35,497 nucleotides of DNA from a virus. The notes under the pieces are model-generated. The model was not told the origin of the DNA, did not search any database, and was given only the letters and a program-made list of their open reading frames with translations. Shown piece after piece: positions 10,371 to 19,697 of this stretch. Within the stretch, counting starts at the first letter, position 1, and each line of letters begins with the position of its first letter. Both the position numbers and the translations under genes were made by a program. The stretch lies in IMG/VR virus record IMGVR_UViG_3300027749_000284, positions 1 to 35,497 of that record; one strand, 5' to 3'.

Positions 10371-10450
10371 TGGGCAAGACAGGATTCGAACCTGCAAAAG
10401 ATTTCTCAACCTAGCATCGCTACGCTTGTGTACCATTCCAACACTTACCC
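10371..10450 (-). tRNA. tRNA, Leu-like body with unusual anticodon arm
   Basis: Leftward strand: a seven-base-pair acceptor stem (GGGTAAG with CTTGCCC, one G-U pair), an A discriminator at 10371, and a classical T arm GCAGGTTCGAATCCTGT. The D-arm TTGGAATGGTACACAA and a 13-base variable region resemble tRNA-Leu (type II). The anticodon arm does not form a normal five-pair, seven-base loop: the best fit, GCGTA / TAGGT with loop GCGATGC, has a G-G mismatch, C in place of U33, and GAT as nominal anticodon. CCA is not encoded. Also, a rightward frame over it contains the peptide DRIRTC, a known shadow of tRNA genes, which supports the call. Confidence 0.75.
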
Positions 10451-10883: not shown

Positions 10884-11066
10884 TTAGTAGTTATTTGTTG
10901 TTGTTTGCACAAATATAGTGCTATAATTCTCTTTTTTGTACCATACAATGAAGTTATCTCCACAATTACTATTTAATTTATGGCATAAACTCTTTGCTTT
11001 GTATAAACTACTGACCTTAGTCAGTAGTTCGTTACATCCTCTGTATTCTAAATAGACACAGTACAT
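10884..11066 (-). CDS. Hypothetical protein (60 aa)
   Basis: A 60-residue protein beginning MYCVYLEYRGCNELLTKVSS, with KAKSLCHKLNSNCGDNFIVW in the middle. Beta-alpha-beta pattern typical of a tiny phage host-takeover protein; several cysteines but no clear metal motif. Its start overlaps the end of the 49-residue gene by 19 bases. Confidence 0.55.
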   Translation of the reverse strand: MYCVYLEYRGCNELLTKVSSLYKAKSLCHKLNSNCGDNFIVWYKKENYSTIFVQTTTNNY

Positions 11067-11197
11067 TTCTTCTCTTTAATAGGTTTGACACTGTTCTTAT
11101 ATACTCTGTCGAACGCTTCGCTCATGCGTTTGTTGTCTGCCAAATGAACGCTCTTTATATTTACTAGCCATTCATAAAATCTGTTTACGTCTTCCAT
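11048..11197 (-). CDS. Small hypothetical protein (49 aa)
   Basis: The frame from ATG 11197 to TAG 11048-11050 reads MEDVNRFYEWLVNIKSVHLA, DNKRMSEAFDRVYKNSVKPI and KEKKCTVSI. It has a plausible helix with a basic end. Its start lies within TTCCATAATTATGATAG, one of the repeated start contexts of this operon. No family recognised. Confidence 0.5.
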   Translation of the reverse strand: MEDVNRFYEWLVNIKSVHLADNKRMSEAFDRVYKNSVKPIKEKKCTVSI

Positions 11198-11210: not shown

Positions 11211-12056
11211 TTAATAGTCTGAATTGATTGCTTTGTATAGGTCTGTTATTGTGTCTACATTATTTAAATGCATCATCTCCTCTAGGTCGCCAAGGGATGT
11301 CTCAGCGTCAGGGTCTAGGTTATATATCTCACATAGATACTCATATAACTCCCATTCATCGTATAGGACACCGTCCTCCTCATTAAATCCATAATTGTAA
11401 TCATCTTTCTTTACAGTACTGATTGGTTCATCATCCCATGCATCATTCCATGCATCATCCCATGCTGAAACAGTAGCTCCGGGTTTGGCTACCTTTTGAT
11501 TACCATAGTACACATAAGACTTATACTCTTTGTACGAATCATTTGAGTACCAATTGCCACTAGACCATGCACCTAGCTCCTCGTTGATAATGGTATACTT
11601 ATCCTTATTGTCTAAGAAGATTAACTTACTATAGCCTATATACTCTGATATGAAATACTTACTCATCTCACATGATAAGAACTCATGTTTGAATTTCTTA
11701 AGCATATCATTGAACTCATAGGTATCTGAGAAACTTTTGTTACCTAATCCCTTGATGACTCCATTGTGTACGAATCCTAGGTTATCATTGGTAAGGAATG
11801 GATGAAGATTATGCTCACCATTGTATCCACTAGTAGCGATACGAAAATGCAGGACGATATTGCCAATGGACTTATCATCACGTAACTCGTTATACTTCTC
11901 AAGGTAATCATCATACTCGTATGACTTGAATACATTTAGCTTATTGTTCTTGGTCCATAGAAGGCCGGCTCCCATGTCATTGTTATCCCAAGAGTTTTGA
12001 ATTTGATTTTTAGGTAATCTACCACCTTTTTTACAGTTTAAAATTGCTATGCACAT
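11211..12056 (-). CDS. Class-II glutamine amidotransferase (Ntn-type)
   Basis: This 281-residue protein begins MCIAILNCKKGGRL: the N-terminal Cys2 becomes the nucleophile after Met removal, as in class-II glutaminases. Family blocks are intact: NDMGAGLLW (28-34), VLHFRIATSG (68-77, substrate-binding Arg), NLHPF (83-87), GFVHNG (94-99) and a Ser-Asp-Thr at 110-112. It should release ammonia from glutamine for a partner enzyme. Its neighbour is a predicted amidoligase, so the pair probably forms amide or peptide bonds on an acceptor, using ammonia or an amine. The C-terminal half is unusual, with the acidic tandem AWDDAWNDAWDDEP and DLEEMMHLNNVDT, which could be a partner-binding tail. Confidence 0.82.
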   Translation of the reverse strand: MCIAILNCKKGGRLPKNQIQNSWDNNDMGAGLLWTKNNKLNVFKSYEYDDYLEKYNELRDDKSIGNIVLHFRIATSGYNGEHNLHPFLTNDNLGFVHNGVIKGLGNKSFSDTYEFNDMLKKFKHEFLSCEMSKYFISEYIGYSKLIFLDNKDKYTIINEELGAWSSGNWYSNDSYKEYKSYVYYGNQKVAKPGATVSAWDDAWNDAWDDEPISTVKKDDYNYGFNEEDGVLYDEWELYEYLCEIYNLDPDAETSLGDLEEMMHLNNVDTITDLYKAINSDY

Positions 12057-12067
12057 AATGTTTGTTT

Positions 12068-13315
12068 TTATTTATTATTATTATTATTATTTTTATCGTT
12101 GATATCTAACCCCTCGAATTGTTTAGTGAACTGCACGAACCTAGTCTTTAACTCAACTAACTTGTCATCTGAATAGACTTGACTAAGTAACTTTGTGAAC
12201 TTGGTGTCCACATTATAGTATGCTCTGATGATGTCCGATGTTGGGTGCTGTAGTATCATCATAAGTAACTTACTTCTCCACTTCAATGATTTAACATTTC
12301 GTACGGCACTAATAATCCTGAACTCCACCCTATTGTCATGTATCTTGATGGCTTGGTACTTCTCGTTCTCATTCTTAAGGTCGTTATTGTTCTTACCTTT
12401 GCAGTAATTCTTGTCGACTCTACCATAGTATAAAGCATAGAACAGTGGTGTATAACCCTTTATCTTCTCAAACATTTCCTCACCCGATAACCCTACCTCT
12501 GATAAATGTATATGACCACCACAACTTAATGATGTATCGGCATTGATATGCTCAACGAGTACGCTATTGCCCTCAATGTGCTTGAATATCTTATCAATAT
12601 TGAACTCAAACGTAGGACTGATTAACTCATAGCCTGAGTAATCATCAAGACTTCCATCTCGTTCCTTTCTCCATGTATCAGCTGTCTCATTCTCAAAGTC
12701 ATTTATATTGATACTACGCAATACATCAAAGTCTTCTTTCTCAATCTCATAGCCAATACGATACTTTGATTTGCCGTCAAAGTTAATTGTCCCATAGCTA
12801 CCATTATGATAACCTCTAGTGTAATCCTCACTATCGTCCTCCTCTCTATCCTCGGGATATGTGTAATATTCTCCGGAATCACTATGGTAGTATACGTTGT
12901 CTCTAAAATCCCAATCGTTGGTATCTTCTACATACACAATATCGTAGTACTCTTGGGCATCGCAATCATAGTATTCACCACGAAACTCTATCCAATCTGA
13001 ATTCCTTTGTGCATAAGACTCGCTATACGTCTGCGAGTGACCTCTGCCCTCGTGTACAATAACCCCATAGTCATCATGGTAGTACTCCTCATTGCCCATA
13101 CAAAAGAACGATAAGTCACGGTCAAGTATCTTACCGTGATGGTCATACACATAGGCCTCTTCTGAGAACATATACTGCTCGCTCTCAATGTAGCAATTCT
13201 CGGCTAACTCGTCTAGCGTTACGTATTCTTGCTCGATACTTCTGATTGCCTTTTCAATCATACCTCTGTCTTCGTTGAATACTCCGTAAAGTACTCTTAA
13301 ATCTGATAATTCCAT
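12068..13315 (-). CDS. Amidoligase (COOH-NH2 ligase, ATP-grasp-like)
   Basis: A 415-residue protein. The C-terminal two thirds carry the amidoligase motifs in order: YRIGYEIEKED (185-195), KERDGSLDDY (217-226), GYELISP (228-234), SCGGHIHLS (264-272), KYQAIKIHD (319-327) and RVEFRI (329-334). These are the ATP- and metal-binding positions of the COOH-NH2 ligase group described with ATP-grasp and glutamine-synthetase-like enzymes. The N-terminal 180 residues contain Tyr/Asp-rich repeats (EEYYHDDYGVIVHEG, EYYDCDAQEYYD, VYYHSDSGEYYTY), a substrate- or partner-binding module. It forms an operon with the class-II glutaminase at 11211-12056, the gap being 11 bases. Known pairs of this type are thought to modify peptides, lipids or other metabolites; the substrate here cannot be read. 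The C-terminus ends in an Asn-rich tract. Confidence 0.82.
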   Translation of the reverse strand: MELSDLRVLYGVFNEDRGMIEKAIRSIEQEYVTLDELAENCYIESEQYMFSEEAYVYDHHGKILDRDLSFFCMGNEEYYHDDYGVIVHEGRGHSQTYSESYAQRNSDWIEFRGEYYDCDAQEYYDIVYVEDTNDWDFRDNVYYHSDSGEYYTYPEDREEDDSEDYTRGYHNGSYGTINFDGKSKYRIGYEIEKEDFDVLRSININDFENETADTWRKERDGSLDDYSGYELISPTFEFNIDKIFKHIEGNSVLVEHINADTSLSCGGHIHLSEVGLSGEEMFEKIKGYTPLFYALYYGRVDKNYCKGKNNNDLKNENEKYQAIKIHDNRVEFRIISAVRNVKSLKWRSKLLMMILQHPTSDIIRAYYNVDTKFTKLLSQVYSDDKLVELKTRFVQFTKQFEGLDINDKNNNNNNK

Positions 13316-15025: not shown

Positions 15026-15139
15026 CTAATTGGTTTTATAATTGATTGCTATTAATACTAATACTCCTATAATTAAAACGAGTGGGTACACTGTTAACAT
15101 GCACACACTCGCTATTACAATATTCAATGCTATTCTCAT
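15026..15139 (-). CDS. Small membrane peptide (37 aa)
   Basis: The frame from ATG 15139 to TAG 15026-15028 encodes MRIALNIVIASVCMLTVYPL, then VLIIGVLVLIAINYKTN. Nearly the whole protein is one or two membrane segments with a short basic/polar end. Overlaps the next gene's end by four bases (ATGA). Role unknown. Confidence 0.55.
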   Translation of the reverse strand: MRIALNIVIASVCMLTVYPLVLIIGVLVLIAINYKTN

Positions 15140-15318
15140 GCGGTTTTAAATATTAGGCGCTCGGTTAGTCGCATTTCCAAAATTTTCTTCGCATCCTTGT
15201 ATTCCACTTTCTTAAGCAGCATTATACATTTCAATGCCCTTGAATAGGCTCTAATATCTTTCTCGATTTGTTGTATTACATTTGTAACATCAACTTTTGT
15301 GTTTATTCTTGGTCTCAT
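15136..15318 (-). CDS. Small basic protein (60 aa)
   Basis: Reads MRPRINTKVDVTNVIQQIEK and then KCIMLLKKVEYKDAKKILEM. Helical and basic, a common size for host-directed early proteins. It begins two bases after the stop codon of the small membrane gene to its right and its own stop overlaps a following membrane peptide. Confidence 0.55.
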   Translation of the reverse strand: MRPRINTKVDVTNVIQQIEKDIRAYSRALKCIMLLKKVEYKDAKKILEMRLTERLIFKTA

Positions 15319-18080: not shown

Positions 18081-19697
18081 ATGTTAGACAATCAAGGTTA
18101 TGCTCCTAAAGATTTATTCTTTGGTGATAATGGTAGAAAAAAATTAGTTAACGGTGTAGTTAAAATGTCAAAGGCTGTAAAAAGCACATTAGGTCCCGGA
18201 GGTAATCCTGTTCTAATTGAATCACCAAGTCACACCCATGGTATCACAGTTACAAAAGATGGTGTTACTGTAGCAAAGTCAATCGACTTATTTGACCCAA
18301 CAGAAAACCTTGCGGTAAAAATGATGAAGGAAGCTGCTGAGCGTACCGCTACAAGTGCGGGTGACGGAACAACAACTGCTATCGTTTTAACTGAAGCATT
18401 AGTCCTTGGAGGACTTCAGTACATTGAGGAAACTCACAACCGAACTGAAGTATTAAGACAAGTGGTGGAGATTAGCGAGAAGGTGGTGGATAGGTTGAAA
18501 AAACGAAGCAAGAAAGTTAATGCTTCTATGTTGGTGGATGTGGCTAGCATCTCAGCCAATAATGACCGCGAAATAGGCAAGATAATTGCTGAGGTATACA
18601 AAGATGTAGGTAAGACAGGAATCGTGACTGTAGAGCGCTCTCAGAGCGACGAAACTTATGCCGAGACTACAATGGGTTTGAAATTTGATAGAGGGTATCT
18701 TAGCCCGATGTTTATCAATGACCAAAAGAAGGATGAGTGTATCTTTGATGACGTGATGATTTTAGTCGCTGATATGGAGATTGCAAATATTCTTCAGATT
18801 GAGAACATATTGAAACCAATTATTACAGAAGGAAAGAAGTTGTTGATTATTGCGCCTTGCAATGTGAATGTGATTAACACATTATCAGCAAATGTTATGA
18901 AAGGAAATGTGAAAATATGTGCAGTTCCTCCTCCAAGTTTCGGATACAAGCAACATGAGCTTATGCATGACATCGCTGTTAGCGTTGGTGCTACTTATTT
19001 CAGTGAGAAAACAGGAGATGATTTAAGTATTATCAATTATGGTGACCTTGGCCACGCTTCAAAAGTAATCGTAAGCAAAGATAAGACCGTAATTATAAAG
19101 TCAGACGTTAAATTAGACCAAAAAGTAATAGACGAAAGAGTTTCCCAATTATGGTTAACACATAAGATGGCGAATAAAAAGGCCGATAAAGACTTCTTAT
19201 TGGAGCGAATTGCGTCATTAACAGGTGGAATTGGTGTAATTTTCGTAGGTGGACAGACAGATTTGGAGCAAAAAGAACTATACGATAGAGTTGACGATGC
19301 AGTTTGTGCAGTTCGTTCAGCACTTGAGGAAGGTATTATTCCCGGAGCAGGTAAAGCTTTGTTTGAAGAAAGTTTCCTAGAAGGAATTACTTCAGTAGGG
19401 AAAGAAGAGTACATAGTTGCTAGGAAAATAGTTGGAGAAGCATTACAAGCTCCATTTATTCAAATACTTTCAAACGCAGGACTAAAGGTTGAGAACATTT
19501 ACACAGGTCCAATGGAGATTGGTAATGGATACAATCTTAAGACAGGCGAGATGGGTAATTTAATTAAGATGGGAGTAATTGACCCACTGAAAGTTACAAG
19601 GTCTGCATTGCAAAACGCAATATCCGTTGCGGTAACAATCTTAAGTACAAATGCTATTGTAACAATGGCTCGTACTTATGAGCAAGCTCAAGATTAA
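18081..19697 (+). CDS. groEL: Phage-encoded GroEL chaperonin (Cpn60)
   Basis: A 538-residue, full-length chaperonin subunit: equatorial, intermediate and apical domains are all present. ATP-site markers are GAGDGTTT-like SAGDGTTTAIVLTEAL (92-107; D95 is the phosphate/Mg ligand), SIDLFDP (67-73) and the catalytic region LYDRVDDAVCAVRSALEEGI (D405/D406). The motif GIIPGAGKAL corresponds to the usual GVVAGGGVAL. The apical part SPMFINDQKKDECIFDDVMI is conserved. The C-terminal GGM tail is missing: the protein ends YEQAQD. It would form a double-ring folding chamber for phage proteins, probably with the Cpn10-like protein encoded at 20134. It has its own promoter. Codon use is like the neighbouring phage genes, not like recent transfer from a host. 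Confidence 0.93.
   Translation: MLDNQGYAPKDLFFGDNGRKKLVNGVVKMSKAVKSTLGPGGNPVLIESPSHTHGITVTKDGVTVAKSIDLFDPTENLAVKMMKEAAERTATSAGDGTTTAIVLTEALVLGGLQYIEETHNRTEVLRQVVEISEKVVDRLKKRSKKVNASMLVDVASISANNDREIGKIIAEVYKDVGKTGIVTVERSQSDETYAETTMGLKFDRGYLSPMFINDQKKDECIFDDVMILVADMEIANILQIENILKPIITEGKKLLIIAPCNVNVINTLSANVMKGNVKICAVPPPSFGYKQHELMHDIAVSVGATYFSEKTGDDLSIINYGDLGHASKVIVSKDKTVIIKSDVKLDQKVIDERVSQLWLTHKMANKKADKDFLLERIASLTGGIGVIFVGGQTDLEQKELYDRVDDAVCAVRSALEEGIIPGAGKALFEESFLEGITSVGKEEYIVARKIVGEALQAPFIQILSNAGLKVENIYTGPMEIGNGYNLKTGEMGNLIKMGVIDPLKVTRSALQNAISVAVTILSTNAIVTMARTYEQAQD

Follow-up and report, generated by a model that had tools for sequence, protein, structure and literature searches.

The window, that is, the whole stretch of DNA analysed here, comprises the 35,497 bases of an IMG/VR virus record and represents part of a genome, with a GC content of 33% and Shine-Dalgarno sites at hardly any of its starts (3/35). 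A Bacteroidota bacterium is likely to be the host of this virus, because its large terminase (TerL) resembles those of the podovirus MW202828 (78% identity) and of the Flavobacterium 'elemo' phages (45% identity). Two adjacent and intact open reading frames on the minus strand, with the ligase gene upstream, the glutaminase gene downstream and 11 bases between them, occupy exactly the positions (11211-13315) assigned to them in an initial annotation made from the DNA letters. The features of the locus are as follows:

11048..11197, minus strand: small conserved open reading frame (49 aa) that closely follows the glutaminase gene, with a homologue at that place in 9/15 relatives
11211..12056, minus strand: class-II (Ntn) glutamine amidotransferase / glutaminase, 281 aa (open reading frame, profiles, AF2)
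11427..11462, minus strand: WDDAWNDAWDDE, glutaminase residues 199-210 (alignment and pLDDT)
12068..13315, minus strand: amidoligase of 415 aa with two domains (open reading frame, profiles, AF2)
12116..12775, minus strand: catalytic domain of the ligase, residues ~181-400 (alignment and fold)
12776..13198, minus strand: Tyr/Asp-rich beta-hairpin repeats of the ligase, residues ~40-180 (AF2, BFVD)

The two genes are co-oriented with those for a primase (BT4734-like/PriCT), a Sak annealing protein and an exonuclease, and the packaging and tail genes (tail-fibre, tail-spike and terminase) are found on the opposite strand. The initial annotation was right in placing the pair in one operon and in stating that such pairs had been described from comparative genomics.

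The window glutaminase alone falls below the Pfam cut-offs, scoring 17.9 vs 27 bits for GATase_6 (E 0.003) and 15.4 vs 23 bits for GATase_4 (E 0.009). These families are matched (E<=0.01) by 35/44 and 32/44 of its relatives, respectively; a relative from Chitinophaga clears the GATase_4 cut-off with 37.5 bits, and a profile search matched the GlmS glutaminase at 3.6e-5. In an AlphaFold (AF2) model built from the 44 relatives (mean pLDDT 84.7), the protein has a class-II (Ntn) fold, the PDB structures nearest to residues 2-177 being EgtC (4zfj, Z 13.9) and GlmS (1xff, Z 13.6), which superpose with an rmsd of 3.0-3.4 over 161-168 residues; the GlmS/PurF glutaminases together match the model at Z 12-13.6. 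The Cys2, HFR, HPF and HNG blocks by which the protein had been recognised as a class-II glutaminase are present and conserved in the aligned relatives, since C2, H70, R72, T75, G77, H85-P86-F87, H97-N98-G99 and D111-T112 are unchanged across all 44, and Cys2 lies at the predicted mature N-terminus, as had been expected. By GlmS numbering, we equate these invariant residues with the nucleophile, with the Arg and Asp that bind glutamine and with the oxyanion Asn-Gly; the glutamyl pocket of the enzyme therefore looks intact. A less fortunate proposal was that the acidic WDDAWNDAWDDE stretch forms a tail of the glutaminase that could pair with the repeats of the ligase. This stretch is internal, is absent at that place in the aligned relatives and falls within residues 194-225, where pLDDT is <50; in the model it belongs to a disordered linker, variable in sequence, that joins the Ntn domain to a small helical domain at the C-terminus, and the pairing is therefore unsupported. 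A functional tail was ruled out for lack of conservation. In several more distant relatives, the linker region is occupied by a zinc ribbon or by a gamma-glutamyl cyclotransferase (GGCT) domain.

Sequence searches with the window ligase were likewise weak: alone it had no match in Pfam, missing the gathering cut-off of PF12224 (Amidoligase_2), and a PDB sequence search gave nothing usable. Its assignment is nevertheless consistent at the family level, with a match to the PHROG family phrog_7469 (amidoligase, E 0.003), PF12224 matched by 8/62 of its relatives (E<=0.01), and the homologous cellular ligases of loci L131 and L132 scoring 39.8 and 36.3 bits against the 22 bits that PF12224 requires. 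An AF2 model built from the 62 relatives (mean pLDDT 92.5) agrees with the claim that the 415-residue protein belongs inside the amidoligase fold. Residues 180-391 match YbdK (Z 9.1, 190 residues aligned, rmsd 3.8), glutamine synthetases (GS) also match the C-terminal half (Z 8-9), and among the viral structures of BFVD the model is matched by phage amidoligases with E down to 3e-15, including those of Pseudomonas phage tf, Salinivibrio phage CW02 and Cellulophaga phi14:2; the Foldseek matches include as well the GS-fold protein modifier Dop (9cku). Given these matches, the modelled ligase is an amidoligase of the GS/YbdK fold and not an ATP-grasp enzyme. Thus, the motifs GYEIE, ERDGS, ELISP, GGHIHL and VEFRI had been correctly singled out as present and are conserved, but their description as ATP-grasp-like does not hold. 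Residues G188, E190, E192, K193, E218, D220, S222, G228, E230, G266, G267, H268, R299, E331, R333 and R347 are invariant in the 62 relatives, the catalytic motifs remain unchanged down to ~20% identity, and a core G-E-E-D-S-E-H-E-R is largely common to the ligases of phiEco32, LUZ24, RIO-1 and StenR_269.

The Tyr/Asp-rich repeats that had been noticed at the N-terminus of the ligase are real, and they are modelled with high confidence as a series of beta-hairpins that diverges fast among relatives. One top BFVD match of the ligase carries the annotation 'LIM domain containing', and the L131 and L132 ligases have clear zinc ribbons at the homologous place (CEGC..CNDC, CRHC..CEYC, CENC..CNC). 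For these reasons, we infer that the repeats are a degenerate zinc-ribbon/LIM-like array, which probably binds the acceptor. CxxC pairs are missing from the repeats of the window ligase and few across the family; functional zinc binding by the window's own repeats was rejected on this account.

The pairing has been surveyed in 80 viral loci, the window and some close copies among them. A glutaminase gene lies beside the ligase gene on the same strand in 71/80, nearly always downstream and mostly at a spacing of 0-60 bases. Of the nine exceptions, five break off inside the ligase or at its edge and three within about 1 kb, the latter belonging to a clade in which the usual ligase-glutaminase spacing is 0.8-3.9 kb. 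The ninth, locus L089, was considered as a ligase without a partner and rejected because it holds a 78-residue ligase remnant. For both genes, close pairs whose dS is at least 0.07 give dN/dS values of 0.03-0.27, which shows that purifying selection maintains the two; these low values, together with the order kept in 71/80 viral loci, argue that the pair is not a product of chance. Several variations of the arrangement have been observed. Open reading frames that resemble GIY-YIG homing endonucleases by eye are inserted exactly at the junction of the two genes in loci of two different phages (L041:7228-7860 and L080:6989-7594), and one glutaminase is flanked by two diverged ligase paralogues in two others (L061:4284-8310 and L074:25-3737). 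Fusions of the glutaminase with a GGCT domain and a C-terminal zinc ribbon occur at L087:9024-10154, L096:10698-11786, L099:9002-10078 and MW202828 47708-48925; in loci of the L087/L096/L099 type, many small open reading frames separate ligase from glutaminase.

With regard to a conserved third gene, for which a neighbourhood survey had been suggested, no conserved enzyme was found beside the pair in the clade of the window, where the recurrent neighbours are small unassigned open reading frames only. The 49-aa frame is possibly an accessory gene of the pair. Another small frame near the pair (15136-15318, minus strand, 60 aa) is conserved in 11/15 relatives. Gamma-glutamyl cyclotransferase (PF06094) is present in 6/20 relative records, always as a glutaminase fusion of the sister clade, and was not detected in the other 14, which make up the wider clade of the window. 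A second COOH-NH2 ligase (PF14395) was not found in 17 relative records by a search that recovered the controls LUZ24 and phiEco32; nor was a RimK-type ATP-grasp enzyme in the same number of records, with a model that gave only weak signals for the controls phiEco32 and RIO-1 and none for LUZ24.

Pairs of this kind have been reported before. The amidoligase superfamily was first proposed by Iyer et al. (2009), as related in the papers that cite it, and a phage 'peptidoglycan modification cassette' thought to prevent superinfection has been described (PMC5498523) and the proposal restated (PMC11945000). From 2009 onward, peptidoglycan modification has been the annotated role of phage amidoligase cassettes, but no experimental or biochemical proof for any cassette member or for the peptidoglycan target was found in the literature searched, and this target is best regarded as a prediction. 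The cassette phages include phiEco32, LUZ24/PaP3/tf and RIO-1/PSA-HP1. Their likeness to the window lies in a GS-fold, Amidoligase_2-type ligase followed by a class-II glutaminase near replication genes, and LUZ24 gp18-gp19 and phiEco32 84-83 have the same order. On the other hand, the LUZ24/phiEco32 set is larger, with a second COOH-NH2 ligase, an ATP-grasp enzyme and a cyclotransferase, whereas in the window version two enzymes only are seen and no second ligase, ATP-grasp enzyme or separate GGCT was detected. The degenerate zinc-ribbon-like N-terminal array also distinguishes the window ligase from those of the cassette, and the window glutaminase is of a short subtype close to those of the OM43 phage MEP401 and of StenR_269 (gat1). 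An adjacent two-gene pair is likewise found in MEP401 (gp05-gp06), one of the OM43 phages in which the function of these ligase and glutaminase genes was left unexplored (PMC10580990); its glutaminase is 35% identical to that of the window over 90% of the length, and its ligase is far diverged (profile E 5e-5, hhalign 88%) with a longer N-terminus. The Manatee Spring podovirus MW202828, of the same lineage as the window (TerL 78%, groEL), has a similar layout of ligase then glutaminase, but its glutaminase is a fusion protein that also contains a gamma-glutamyl cyclotransferase domain and, at the C-terminus, a zinc ribbon. The ligase-glutaminase pairing itself is already known from other phages, and the pair of the window is well supported as a minimal two-gene form of it that also travels on bacterial elements. 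An elaborate set is that of Stenotrophomonas phage StenR_269 (OR838459.1 7097-15255, L024), which holds two class-II amidotransferases, several GS-like ligases, a GGCT-like protein, a D-Ala-D-Ala-ligase-like ATP-grasp enzyme and interspersed tRNA genes.

Outside phages, no copy was found in the PLSDB plasmids, and a first scan of bacterial genomes gave no close ligase relatives. The glutaminase profile then found a copy in Chitinophaga, and profile searches of sampled genomes added two more, with matches in 1/396 (Chitinophaga family), 3/395 (Chitinophaga phylum), 2/164 (order of genome G758) and 1/395 (class of G758). In each of the three genomes with a cellular copy, the ligase gene is directly upstream of the glutaminase gene. 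The copy of Chitinophaga eiseniae (L127) lies beside genes for CTnDOT TraJ and TraG and E2/ThiF genes of the PRTRC type, in what is a CTnDOT-like conjugative element. Of the other copies, whose neighbours were covered by a PADLOC scan, L131 (G758:C20) is accompanied by a type IIG enzyme, a TIR gene and a prokaryotic Argonaute, the last with a DUF4062 partner, and L132 (G483:C35) by QatB, QatC and QatD. Besides the ligase-glutaminase pair, these two related islands have in common a Cdc6-like AAA protein and a serine-recombinase/HerA-like core; since G758 and G483 belong to one order and this core recurs in both, they are not independent. To judge from their gene content, all three loci look mobile or defence-rich, and no virion genes were found in the stretches read of the L127 element and of both islands. 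Small as these numbers are, they suggest a role of the pair in competition between mobile elements, and the copies on a conjugative element and in islands fit a host-directed role better than a virion-directed one.

The best explanation as a whole, to which we give a probability of about 0.4, is that the two enzymes act jointly on an acceptor of the host envelope. The underlying chemistry, a glutamine-fed, ATP-dependent amide formation, is in itself quite probable. The pair would be made early in infection from the replication-side operon; the class-II glutaminase would hydrolyse glutamine by means of Cys2 and release ammonia, the GS-fold ligase would activate a carboxylate with ATP as an acyl phosphate, and ammonia, or less likely another amine, would attack it to give a carboxamide. 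The acceptor, probably bound by the zinc-ribbon-like N-terminal domain of the ligase, would most likely be a cytoplasmic peptide from which the host envelope is built, such as a peptidoglycan stem-peptide precursor, and the amidated surface might be entered less easily by competing phages or elements. As the second ligase and the ATP-grasp enzyme were not found in the 17 relative records, the acceptor may differ from that of the cassette. In principle, the peptidoglycan amidotransferase MurT/GatD follows a similar scheme, its glutaminase supplying the ammonia with which the ATP-dependent ligase converts a carboxylate to an amide. The two systems are not homologous; MurT has a Mur-ligase fold and GatD belongs to the class-I amidotransferases, whereas the window pair consists of a class-II Ntn glutaminase and a GS-fold ligase.

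A rather unlikely alternative involves gamma-glutamyl chemistry, in which the ligase would join the gamma-carboxyl of glutamate to an amine, as YbdK/GCS-like enzymes do, and the class-II protein would be EgtC-like and hydrolyse gamma-glutamyl amides, the fused cyclotransferase of the sister clade removing the group; the pair would then build or break down a metabolite or peptide that bears a gamma-glutamyl tag. EgtC (Z 13.9) and YbdK (Z 9.1) are indeed the top PDB folds, tied with GlmS and GS, and a GGCT domain is fused to the sister-clade glutaminase. There is also a likeness to EgtA/EgtC of ergothioneine synthesis, a GCS-type ligase and a class-II-like Ntn hydrolase, of which EgtC cleaves gamma-glutamyl conjugates; no other ergothioneine genes were seen. 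But the likeness to EgtC and YbdK is one of fold only, GlmS/PurF match equally well and are preferred, in the case of GlmS, by the profile search, and no GGCT was detected in the wider clade of the window (14 records searched). We also doubt, to a similar degree, that the pair is a protein-directed modifier, by analogy with the GS-fold enzymes PafA/Dop, whose N-terminal array would recruit a host or competitor protein so that the ligase could amidate its carboxylate or conjugate it to an amine, as a defence or counter-defence device. The array is well folded and fast-diverging and has cellular relatives with intact zinc ribbons, Dop is among the Foldseek matches, and the cellular copies adjoin pAgo/TIR/type IIG and QatB-QatC-QatD genes; zinc ribbons, however, bind many kinds of ligand, the cellular copies are only three, two of them in closely related elements, and an island neighbourhood is no proof of a defence role.

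Host envelope precursors are favoured as acceptors over virion proteins. The capsid or tail peptide put forward in the initial annotation as a possible substrate is disfavoured by the copies on a CTnDOT-like element and in two islands, whose stretches read hold no virion genes, and by the location of the pair with replication genes on the strand opposite to the packaging and tail genes; a profile search moreover detected no copy in a cultured phage of the related Flavobacterium elemo group. Maturation of such a peptide, for which the strong conservation of the pair by phages could speak, is accordingly highly improbable. Class-II amidotransferases serve some phage 7-deazaguanine pathways, and for this reason a role in phage DNA, where the pair would amidate a modified nucleobase or nucleotide, has been considered; QueC and a thymidylate-synthase-type gene are absent from 18 relative records (possibly incomplete), and the pair also occurs on the conjugative element and in the islands, so that there is very little to be expected from this explanation. 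A bolder generalisation, speculative and in our opinion improbable, is that of a portable conflict module common to phages, conjugative elements and defence-rich islands, in which zinc-ribbon-guided, glutamine-fed amidation would alter one particular protein of the cell, or a peptide of its envelope, and thereby exclude competing mobile elements.

The two-gene version offers the simplest way to test the chemistry and identify the acceptor, as an assay would require no additional ligase or ATP-grasp enzyme. Should the acceptor prove to be a peptide or protein of the host envelope, a widespread class of phage early genes would be explained, and a chemical mechanism of superinfection exclusion might be added to those known. 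Two other features of the window deserve mention. Just downstream of the pair (10371-10450, minus strand), there is an Rfam tRNA match of 33.7 bits (cut-off 29), without confirmation by ARAGORN. Finally, a chaperonin of the GroEL family is encoded at 18081-19697 on the plus strand (Pfam Cpn60 4e-52, PHROG groEL 7e-129); it is kept in 11 relatives, and groEL with a groES annotation is also present in the Flavobacterium elemo phages and in MW202828.
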